DNA of 10,947 nt from Bryobacterales bacterium (GTDB lineage Bacteria; Acidobacteriota; Terriglobia; Bryobacterales; Bryobacteraceae): the NCBI GenBank assembly GCA_003164075.1, contig PLRZ01000491.1, forward strand, positions 1,190-12,136. Reading direction: 5' to 3'. The position numbers and the translations under genes were made by a program. The notes beneath the pieces are model-generated. The model did no database searches. It worked only from the letters and a program-made list of their open reading frames with translations, and was not told the DNA's origin. The stretch's first letter is position 1; each line of letters starts with the position of its first letter. This document shows, in pieces, positions 1-10,872 of this stretch.

Positions 1-573
1 GCCGCGCTTGAGGGCGGTAGAGATGACACCGGTGCCGATTCGTTTAGTGAAGACCAGGACATCGCCGGGACGCGCGCCGGCATTGGCTTTCACGCGCGCG
101 GGATGGATGGTGCCGGTGACGGCGTACCCGAACTTGATTTCGTCGTCGGAGACGCTGTGGCCGCCCAGGATGGAGCAGCCGGCCTCGTGCATTTTTTCGG
201 CGCCGCCTTTGAGGATGGCCCGCAGATCGTCCAGGTCGCCCTTGGCGGGGTACGCCAGGATGGAGAGCGACGAAATAGGGCGTCCGCCCATGGCGTACAC
301 GTCGCTCAGGGCGTTGGCCGCGGCGATCGCGCCGAAGGTTTCGGGATCGTCGACGATGGGGGTGAAGAAGTCCACGGTCTGCACCAGGGCAAGCTCCGCC
401 GTCAGCTTGTACACGCCGGCATCGTCGGCAGTGTCAAACCCGATCAAAACGTTCTCGTCGGCCCAACGGGGCACGGTGGCCAGTACCTGGTCCAAAACCT
501 TTGGACTGAGCTTGGACGCTCAACCCGCGGCTTTCACGTGTGCCGTAAGCTTCTTCAGTGAAGTGCCATCCAT
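1..573 (-). CDS. selD: Selenide, water dikinase SelD, selenocysteine-containing, 3' end outside window
   Basis: SelD makes selenophosphate from selenide and ATP; selenophosphate is the selenium donor for selenocysteine and 2-selenouridine. Reading from ATG at 573, the protein opens MDGTSLKKLTAHVKAAG, then an in-frame UGA (codon 18), then ASKLSPKVLDQVL. The UGA sits where E. coli SelD has its catalytic Cys17, three residues before the catalytic Lys (Lys20 in E. coli, K21 here). After the UGA the frame continues as clear SelD: ADDAGVY (Mg-ATP binding, about 49-55), TVDFFTPIVDDPETFG (66-81), NALSDVYAMGG (87-97) and GGHSVSDDEIKFGYAVTG. About 191 codons are present of a usual 340-350, the rest lying beyond position 1. 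I see no strong Shine-Dalgarno. Automatic annotation would probably start it after the UGA. Family certain; Sec decoding very likely given the SECIS-like hairpin. Confidence 0.95.
490..506 (-). promoter_or_regulatory. Candidate bacterial SECIS hairpin of selD
   Basis: On the minus strand a perfect 7-bp stem GUCCAAA/UUUGGAC closes a GGU loop. The stem starts 13 nt after the UGA and the loop 20 nt after it. Bacterial SECIS elements place the apical loop roughly 16-37 nt after the UGA and carry a G in the first two loop bases; both hold here. The element lies inside the coding sequence, as bacterial SECIS elements do. Its role is to recruit SelB-GTP-Sec-tRNA. Confidence 0.7.
520..522 (-). other. 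UGA selenocysteine codon in selD
   Basis: TGA on the minus strand at 522-520, in frame with both the N-terminal SelD motif (KAAG before it) and all downstream SelD sequence. Its place equals the redox/catalytic Cys of SelD, which is known to be either Cys or Sec across bacteria. A sequencing error would have to hit exactly this residue, so Sec is the simpler reading. Confidence 0.88.
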
Positions 574-8223: not shown

Positions 8224-8779
8224 GCGGCGCTGCGGATGGGCGGCCGACGAACTCTCGGCGGCCTACCACGATAGCGAGTGGGGCGTGCCGGTGCATGACG
8301 ACCGGCTTCTGTTCGAGTTCCTCATTCTGGAAGGGGCGCAGGCCGGTTTGAGCTGGATCACGATTCTCAAGAAACGCCCGGCCTATCGGAAAGCTTTCGA
8401 CGGCTTCGATCCGCGCAAGGTGGCGCGCTATGACGCTGCCCGGATGGCCGCGTTGCTGGCGGATGCGGGGATCGTGCGCAATCGTCTGAAGATCGCCTCG
8501 GCGGTCACCAATGCGCAGGCATTTCTCGAGGTGCAGAAAGAATTCGGCAGCTTCGACCGGTACATCTGGGGATTCGTGGATGGCCGGCCGGTGCGGAATT
8601 GCCGGCGCGCGGGCGAGGCGCCTCCCGCGCGCACCCCGCAATCCGACGCCATGAGCAAGGATCTGGGGCGCCGCGGCTTCAAGTTTGTCGGGTCCACCAT
8701 TTGTTATGCCTTCATGCAGGCCACCGGTATGGTCAACGACCATACCAGCGATTGTTTCCGCTACTCCGAACTGCAATGA
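8204..8779 (+). CDS. tag: DNA-3-methyladenine glycosylase I
   Basis: 191 aa. Tag removes 3-methyladenine from alkylated DNA, starting base-excision repair in the cytoplasm. Family motifs are intact: CGWA (C10), YHDSEWG (H22), LEGAQAGLSWITILKKR (E43 equals catalytic Glu38 of E. coli Tag), GFKFVGSTICYAFMQA (159-173) and VNDHTSDC (H180, C184). C10, H22, H180 and C184 match the zinc snap of the family. Length equals the norm. AAGGA at 8191-8195 is a good ribosome site 8 nt before the ATG, which lies 20 nt inside the esterase-like gene. Its stop is 3 nt from the convergent RES gene, leaving no room for a shared terminator outside the coding regions. Confidence 0.96.
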   Translation: MPDPVSKRRCGWAADELSAAYHDSEWGVPVHDDRLLFEFLILEGAQAGLSWITILKKRPAYRKAFDGFDPRKVARYDAARMAALLADAGIVRNRLKIASAVTNAQAFLEVQKEFGSFDRYIWGFVDGRPVRNCRRAGEAPPARTPQSDAMSKDLGRRGFKFVGSTICYAFMQATGMVNDHTSDCFRYSELQ

Positions 8780-8782
8780 GAC

Positions 8783-9370
8783 TCAGTTCGTGAGCCCCAC
8801 ACCGTACCGCTTCAGGAGTCTCGCCATCTGCTGACGATCCGCGGCAAGGGAGTGATGCTGAACGATTGCCAAACCATCCTTTGCACGATGGTACACGCCA
8901 ACGCAGAGGGCTGAATCGTCGTGGCGCGATCGATACAGAATACCGTCCGGCTGGTCACTGTGCTCCCACAGGGCACGCGACCAAAGTTGCGACATGGCGT
9001 AGTCGTTGCCGCTTGCCAGTTCGGCCGTCACCCCCAGCCGGGCGGGGCCCGGACCGTGAATCGGCACGAGTCGCAGATCGCGGACCACCTCCACCGTAGC
9101 GATGGAGCACGCAGCCAGATCGTCGAGCGCCAGTATTCTTACGGGCGGATTCCGGAGGAACGTCTCGGCAAAGCACACTTCGAGAGTGGTTCCGAAATAG
9201 CACACGCGGAATCGCCCGGCAGGATCGTCGAAGCGATGAATCGGCTGGCGTCCGCGGGCAGGGCCAAACCAGAGTGCATTCCTGGTTCGCGCATGAATTC
9301 GCATCCAGCGACTCCCAGCCCCCACACGGCTCAGGGGAAGGCGCTTTGGCAAGGGTGGCGCCGGCGTCAT
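8783..9370 (-). CDS. RES-domain toxin
   Basis: 195 aa. RES toxins degrade or transfer NAD+, starving the cell when not held by their antitoxin. The fold core is visible: ALWFGPARG, RFDDPAGRFRVCYFG, TLEVCFAETFL, LGVTAELASGNDYAMSQLWS, and DGILYRSRHD. The name-giving residues are probably R53, E69 and S148. ATG 9370 lies 7 nt after the antitoxin stop, with AAGG just upstream; a TTG at 9397 would extend it into the antitoxin gene and is less likely. It follows the HTH antitoxin in one operon, the normal RES arrangement. Confidence 0.9.
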   Translation of the reverse strand: MTPAPPLPKRLPLSRVGAGSRWMRIHARTRNALWFGPARGRQPIHRFDDPAGRFRVCYFGTTLEVCFAETFLRNPPVRILALDDLAACSIATVEVVRDLRLVPIHGPGPARLGVTAELASGNDYAMSQLWSRALWEHSDQPDGILYRSRHDDSALCVGVYHRAKDGLAIVQHHSLAADRQQMARLLKRYGVGLTN

Positions 9371-9377
9371 CCGCGCC

Positions 9378-10022
9378 TTAAGCTGTCTGTTCGCCAAACG
9401 AGGCAGCGATGGCGACGGCCCTTTCGACCGTGCCCGATTTCAGCGCTTCGACAATCGTCTTGCCTGCCAGAGCCGGCGCGGGTGCGAGCAGCACCGAGAG
9501 TTGGGTCCAGGGGCTTCGAATCCGGAATGCCCGAAGCACATCCTCAATGCCGGGAATGACGCCGTCCGCGGAGAACTGGCAAGCTGGATACACGTACTCG
9601 CCGGATCCGTTCGGAACCGCCAACAGGGCACGCCGGCCACGGCGTTTGTCCACGGCTTGCCTGGTGATGCCCAGAGCGCTCGCCACCTGACTGGAAGAAA
9701 GGCCTCCCCCGCCGCTGGTCAACAATTCCCGTTTGATAGCGGCTCCCTGCGCCATGGCTTCCACCAACGGATCCACGGAGGACAGATCGACAGCCAGCGG
9801 AGCAAGGTCCGATAGCAGGGATGCTACGCCGCCCACATCCGTCGGAGAAGACAAGGCGGATTGCAAGGTTTCGGCCGATGCGGAGGAACTCACACGCTCC
9901 AGCATCTTCACGGATCGCTGCAGGAATGCCTGTGCCAGAGCCCGCCGGGCGCTATCGGCGGGATGCCTGCCCATTGGGGCGACAGCCTTTGGCAATATTG
10001 CAGTGCTGCTCCTGGCTCTCAT
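9378..10022 (-). CDS. HTH antitoxin of the RES pair (Xre/MbcA/ParS-like)
   Basis: 214 aa. The middle holds a helix-turn-helix (LSSSQVASALGITRQAVDKR, about 108-127) followed by a basic stretch and a strand (RALLAVPNGSGEYVYPACQF). The C-terminal 65 aa (PGIEDVLRAF; SPWTQLSVLLAPAPALAGKT; IVEALKSGTVERAVAIAASF) match the toxin-binding domain of RES/MbcT antitoxins. The first 100 residues are helical and Ala/Ser-rich, longer than in most antitoxins. GAGGAG stands 3 nt before ATG 10022, a short spacing; Met17 is another possible start. It lies just upstream of the toxin, as expected, and probably represses its own promoter. Confidence 0.87.
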   Translation of the reverse strand: MRARSSTAILPKAVAPMGRHPADSARRALAQAFLQRSVKMLERVSSSASAETLQSALSSPTDVGGVASLLSDLAPLAVDLSSVDPLVEAMAQGAAIKRELLTSGGGGLSSSQVASALGITRQAVDKRRGRRALLAVPNGSGEYVYPACQFSADGVIPGIEDVLRAFRIRSPWTQLSVLLAPAPALAGKTIVEALKSGTVERAVAIAASFGEQTA

Positions 10023-10507: not shown

Positions 10508-10605
10508 GATCTCCACAGATGGCGCGAAGGGCTGTCCTCGCTGTTCTGCTCAGGGGCGCTACACTGAAAGAGGGACGCGCTCCAATCAGTATTAATGGTA
10601 TCGAT

Positions 10606-10872
10606 ATGAAGACCTACACTTTCAAAGCGATTGTCGAGCCCGATGAAGATCGGTGGCACGCATATTGCCCGGCCCTCCATCAATATGGCGCGGCAACGTG
10701 GGGCGACACTCGCGAGGAAGCGTTCCAGCACATCCAAGAGGTCGTCCAAATGATCATTGACGAGCTTCGCGAGGATGGGATCGCACTGCCGGTGGATCCG
10801 AAAGAGGACGTGGAGGTGTTCGCCGGCGAACGCGTCGCAACCTTCGCAAGCCGACTGCCCGCGAGATCATAG
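10606..10872 (+). CDS. hicB: HicB-family antitoxin
   Basis: 88 aa. The N-terminal half is the partial RNase-H-like HicB fold: YTFKAIVEPDEDRWHAYCPA, then LHQYGAATWGDTREEAFQHI, then a helix QEVVQMIIDELREDG and the strand region IALPVDPKEDVEVF. HicB binds and silences the HicA mRNA interferase. A DNA-binding C-terminal domain is absent, as in the short HicBs. The end (ERVATFASRLPARS) is longer than usual and runs over the start of hicA. ATG 10606 has no Shine-Dalgarno; TACACT at 10560-10565 is a plausible -10. The 29-aa longer start at 10519 shows no family sequence and was rejected. Confidence 0.87.
   Translation: MKTYTFKAIVEPDEDRWHAYCPALHQYGAATWGDTREEAFQHIQEVVQMIIDELREDGIALPVDPKEDVEVFAGERVATFASRLPARS

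Follow-up and report, generated by a model that had tools for sequence, protein, structure and literature searches.

A selenophosphate synthetase gene from a Bryobacterales bacterium with a probable selenocysteine codon at its catalytic position

We analysed a stretch of 10,947 nucleotides (the window) from a Bryobacterales bacterium (assembly GCA_003164075.1, contig PLRZ01000491.1, positions 1,190 to 12,136), one edge of which carries the part of selD that encodes the N-terminal 191 residues of selenophosphate synthetase (selenide, water dikinase; 1..573, minus strand). Its codon 18, at the catalytic position, is an in-frame UGA (520..522, minus strand) that would specify selenocysteine (Sec). 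Because the SelD frame is uninterrupted on both sides of this UGA and a conserved hairpin lies behind it, we put the probability that the gene encodes a Sec-form SelD at about 96%, as judged from sequence comparison.

Results

Translation of the minus strand from 573 to 1, with TGA read as U, gave a protein of 191 residues with a single stop, beginning MDGTSLKKLTAHVKAAGUASKLSPKVLDQV. The protein matched NCBIfam TIGR00476 with 244.1 bits (cut-off 125), residues 8-190 corresponding to positions 1-187 of the 311 in the model, and the match ends at position 187 because the window ends there. It also matched PF00586 (E 4.8e-26), and its best solved relatives, 3u0o (E 4.4e-44) and 2yye (E 1.9e-39), are both named selenide, water dikinase. 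In the alignment with the Cys-form enzyme of E. coli, 3u0o, which covers query residues 8-190, U18-A-S-K21 of the window lies opposite Cys17-G-C-Lys20, so that the C/UxxK motif is present; the window has Sec where 3u0o has Cys17, and Ser20 where it has Cys19. An earlier note, made from the letters of the window, had placed a UGA at the catalytic codon 18 with SelD frame on either side, and the single in-frame UGA at 522-520, opposite Cys17 of 3u0o, bears this out. The structures 2yye, 2zod and 2zau, of the natively Sec-containing SelD of Aquifex aeolicus, belong to the same family with the active-site position aligned (2yye, query residues 2-191), and the window protein differs from them in sequence and host and not in kind. 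The C-terminal part of SelD lies past the window edge, and PF02769 (AIRS C-terminal domain) is present in predicted homologues with 98-99% identity to the window protein where the two overlap.

We then compared the active-site codon in 81 genes, namely the window and the best 80 of at least 586 relatives confirmed in a scan of genome contigs. The codon was TGA in 61, TGC in 17 and TGT in 3, and the alignment with Cys- and Sec-forms proposed by the earlier note thus found both, with 61 TGA and 20 Cys codons; a stricter motif search had left the codon unassigned in nine of the 80 relatives. TGA was present in all 13 of the relatives closest to the window (L001-L013, best-segment identity 74-88%), each a separate assembly record, under the names Bryobacterales, Bryobacteraceae, Solibacter, Sulfopaludibacter, Terriglobia or Acidobacteria. 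When a tree was computed with the active-site residue left out, the window grouped with L001 and L004 (support 98/83) inside a clade of 23 rows (100/99), which we labelled the Bryobacterales clade after the titles of several members. A position within or close to Bryobacterales (Acidobacteriota) is the most likely one for the host. Three members of this clade, L014, L016 and L018, are Cys-forms. A search of a plasmid collection returned 172 records, every one below 60% identity.

The element behind the UGA is a probable bacterial selenocysteine insertion sequence (bSECIS) hairpin (490..506, minus strand), recognized by pairing, covariation and frozen synonymous sites. It has a 7-bp stem, GUCCAAA/UUUGGAC, and the loop GGU, begins 13 nt past the UGA, and spans positions 17-33, numbering from the U of the UGA; all seven pairs form in the window. 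With 7 bp, this loop and a distance of 20 nt from UGA to loop, it fits the bSECIS model as summarized in PMC13188914; in contrast to that general model, it has a sequence specific to the SelD genes of this lineage, and its binding by SelB is a prediction.

The hairpin was examined in 49 acidobacterial genes including the window, 42 of UGA-form and seven of Cys-form (the acidobacterial genes L056, L059 and L065 were excluded). Over 36 distinct rows, 94.4% of the stem cells were paired. Cells in which both sides had changed numbered 24, compared with 9.7 in shuffles, none of 500 shuffles reaching as high a count, and pairing fell to 17-56% when the partner was shifted by 1-3 columns. The serine at hairpin codon +5 was written AGT in 42 of 42 UGA-form genes, against 34 of 726 serine codons elsewhere past the UGA in these genes. 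Within the Bryobacterales clade, synonymous identity over 19 UGA-form genes (L022, a further member, being excluded) was 1.0 at codons +5, +6, +7, +9 and +10, 0.69 at +8 and 0.84 at +11; at the comparison codons, +1 to +4 and +12 to +30, it was 0.26-0.63 at 21 of 23 and 0.89 and 0.77 at the other two. The Cys-form genes keep between two and six of the seven pairs: two in L016 and L048, three in L014 and L018, four in L044, and six in L024 and L026, the last two looking as if the change from Sec to Cys had been recent. By parsimony, at least four changes between Sec and Cys occurred among the 49 genes.

We searched 32 genomes of relatives, 25 with a UGA-form and seven with a Cys-form selD, for the factors of Sec synthesis and insertion, which the earlier note had inferred for the organism of the window, judging SelA and SelB by curated cut-offs. 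SelA exceeded its cut-off in 29 of the 32 and SelB in 27, with a 28th genome, G019, matching SelB below it. The Rfam tRNA-Sec family exceeded its cut-off in 31 of 32 genomes but also matched all 14 control genomes, in five of them over the cut-off, and we therefore counted ARAGORN calls instead. ARAGORN called a tRNA-Sec with anticodon TCA at 28 of 30 loci and Ile and Ser at the other two; G004 and G008 had no scannable locus. Among the UGA-form genomes, 24 had SelA, 21 SelB and 22 tRNA-Sec(UCA), and 18, including the nearest genome, G001, had all three. All three were also present in four of the seven Cys-form genomes (G014, G016, G026 and G031), while G018 lacked SelA, G024 tRNA-Sec, and G032 both SelA and SelB. 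A tRNA scan of the window itself returned none.

The earlier note had also proposed looking for other UGA-containing selenoproteins, such as formate dehydrogenase, and genes of this kind are present in the relatives. In seven UGA-form genomes searched for PF00578, TGA occurred in 11 of 137 matches, with at least one in each genome. The selenoprotein groups were named by family and motif. The 11 matches fall into three groups: peroxiredoxins with FTGG-U-TKE (five) or TPG-U-T (one), RSADW-U-xxCK (three) and SYT-U-PPF (two). The acidobacterial PF00578-type genes L158, L159 and L186 contain a UGA in the SYT-U-PPF motif, which resembles that of deiodinases. PF02627 (AhpD-like) had TGA in four of 43 matches, in three of ten UGA-form genomes; all four read CPF-U and score weakly, one below the cut-off. 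For formate dehydrogenase, a search of the 25 UGA-form genomes at E 1e-30 gave a single TGA-containing match in each of ten, none over the family cut-off. Nine of these read ENQ(A/S)R(L/V)-U-HGPTV; the tenth, in G002, reads SCNRT-U-HAPSV and has an in-frame TAA at its very start. Three SelW-like PF10262 matches were found in two of 17 genomes, none with an internal stop.

At least one other UGA-containing selenoprotein gene was found in every one of the seven Cys-form genomes as well. PF00578 had TGA in 15 of 117 matches, in six of the seven (not G018), and in the eight that we inspected, at least one from each of the six, the TGA stood at one of the group motifs given above or at one resembling them (RGYW-U-PFC in G032). 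At E 1e-30, formate dehydrogenase gave a single TGA match in five of the seven (G016, G018, G024, G026 and G031), the TGA preceding His-Gly-Pro, His-Ala-Pro or His-Ser-Ala, while in G014 and G032 neither SelD nor the formate dehydrogenase matches obtained at this threshold contain a UGA. We had considered whether SelD could be the sole selenoprotein of the lineage, a self-serving loop, because selenouridine synthase (TIGR03167) was not found in any of the 32 genomes at E 1e-10 and a stricter formate dehydrogenase search (E 1e-80) showed a UGA in only one of 20. The idea was dropped, since other UGA-containing genes were found.

The selD gene of the window is a clean annotation case, with a UGA of the sort that many gene finders take for a stop. 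The first possible start past the UGA is the UUG of codon 27 (493..495, minus strand), and a mechanical list of open reading frames (ORFs) gives 495..1, starting with TTG, 165 aa. We examined predicted homologues as the best 120 of 7936 matches, drawn from 7999 scored candidates. Within these 120, 77 are without the active-site motif, 41 have Cys and two Leu, in agreement with the warning of the earlier note that gene callers would lose the active site. Of the 77, 46 start at the residue of UUG 495, 24 elsewhere nearby, and seven could not be placed. P0002 and P0006, the two with Leu in place of the catalytic residue, are both predictions with a single member, and P0002 does not look like SelD at its end; the Leu probably reflects read errors that let the ORF pass.

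A phospholipase-B-like gene lies divergently beside selD in the window and in L001, L003, L004, L005, L007 and L015; the remaining 74 of the 80 loci, short ones among them, did not show it beside selD. In the window the starts of selD (573) and this gene (608) are 34 bases apart (574-607), which is tight for two promoters, and one of the two starts may have been placed too far upstream. Elsewhere in the window, on the minus strand at 8783-10022, a RES-domain protein (PF08808, E 5.1e-18) is overlapped by an upstream gene of 214 aa with no Pfam match, an arrangement that looks like that of a RES/Xre-type toxin-antitoxin pair. Near the window edge, 10519-10872 on the plus strand has a weak HicB-like antitoxin match (PF15919, 20.2 bits, below the cut-off of 27). 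A PADLOC scan of four window proteins returned none. Between called genes lies an inverted repeat with 19-nt arms that are 100% complementary (2068-2086/2171-2189), adjoined by another with 33-nt arms at 82% (2205-2237/2311-2343); these are possibly REP-like or mobile elements.

Discussion

Established biochemistry suggests how a Sec-form SelD would be made and used. SelB carrying Sec-tRNA(Sec) would bind the hairpin and steer Sec insertion at the UGA over termination. The Sec, in a flexible N-terminal loop, would then help to form selenophosphate out of selenide and ATP, and SelA would use the selenophosphate for the synthesis of Sec-tRNA(Sec). SelD would in this way need its own product, which closes a loop of positive feedback. 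Judging by the relatives, the selenophosphate probably goes into selenoproteins of peroxiredoxin type and, in some members, also into formate dehydrogenase.

Several observations weigh against a Sec-form SelD or against the hairpin that would serve it. Column pairs in which both sides had changed (two) and further pair types (six) were not above shuffles, 500 and 488 of 500 shuffles, respectively, being as high. The innermost pair is open in 12 of the 36 distinct sequences, and the UGA-form gene L051 forms four of the seven pairs in this register. The window hairpin taken alone is moderately unusual, as an equally good or better fold was reached by 58 of 5000 synonymous recodings, and the case for it therefore rests on the comparison among genes. 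At gathering scores the window had no Rfam match, the presence of a bacterial SECIS family in Rfam not having been checked. Seven of the 25 UGA-form genomes lack one or more of the three factors; the completeness of these genomes is not stated, the Rfam-based tRNA search scored only 94 candidates in each, and the evidence for SelA, SelB and tRNA-Sec comes from the genomes of relatives and not from that of the window organism.

We nevertheless consider other explanations of the UGA to be far from probable. If it had arisen as an error in sequencing or assembly, the codon would really be TGC or TGT and the enzyme a Cys-form, as do occur in the same clade (L014, L016 and L018); however, the 13 nearest relatives, from separate assembly records, all have TGA, and the window keeps every stem pair whereas these three Cys-form genes have lost more than half of theirs, which makes an error extremely unlikely. 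It is hardly credible, too, that the gene is decaying, or that translation starts past the UGA at UUG 495 and yields a protein without the catalytic residue. The entry in the ORF list and the many homologues predicted without an active site would speak for such a start, but the residues ahead of the UGA (KLTAHVKAAG and close variants) remain in frame and vary little throughout the acidobacterial set, the synonymous sites past the UGA are frozen in the hairpin, which translation from 495 would not call for, and UxxK is given as a SelD motif in PMC9312934. The UGA might instead be read as a residue other than Sec, through a code change, a suppressor or a Cys-charged tRNA with anticodon UCA. Natural Cys-tRNAs that decode UGA have been described, yet a UGA at 8777-8779 terminates the Tag glycosylase gene of the window, whose domain is matched to model position 176 of 177. 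This and the presence of SelA, SelB and tRNA-Sec in the nearest genome, together with the bSECIS-like hairpin behind the UGA, make a non-Sec reading very unlikely.

The Sec-form SelD can be set beside earlier surveys. In PMC1794560, FdhA and SelD are described as the most widespread bacterial selenoproteins, 15 Sec-to-Cys events were counted, 20% of them in SelD, and SECIS-like remnants were noted in some Cys genes. Acidobacteria are credited there with three selenoprotein families, four selenoproteins and no selenouridine trait; selenouridine synthase was likewise not found in the 32 genomes of relatives searched here, and the relatives show six UGA-containing groups (SelD, FdhA, three of PF00578 and one of PF02627 type) against those three families. 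Families of these kinds are listed for bacteria in PMC13188914. According to PMC1794560, every selenoproteome had FdhA or SelD, and Sec-decoding organisms without FdhA have a Sec-SelD, mostly plus selenouridine. G014 (L014, L181 and L182) combines SelA, SelB, tRNA-Sec and UGA-containing peroxiredoxin-type genes with a Cys-SelD, and no UGA-containing formate dehydrogenase was found in it at E 1e-30; it looks like an exception to the first of these two statements, unless its assembly is incomplete. A literature search found nothing on selenoproteins of Solibacter usitatus, and nothing on Bryobacter and selenocysteine beyond work on goat rumen bacteria.

Because there were at least four changes between Sec and Cys and other UGA-containing selenoprotein genes persist in all seven Cys-form genomes, we asked whether the Sec of acidobacterial SelD might be mainly a selenium-dependent switch on selenophosphate supply and not a catalytic need. 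We regard this as doubtful, although the lineage appears to switch off the feedback loop and yet retain selenoprotein synthesis.

Sec-SelD is a widespread and long-known selenoprotein, and the gene of the window is an ordinary new member. The finding alters no picture, as PMC1794560 already describes both Sec-SelD and the replacement of Sec by Cys in this protein. What it adds is a lineage with at least four Sec/Cys changes in SelD, in which intact, remnant and lost hairpins coexist and other UGA-containing selenoprotein genes persist.
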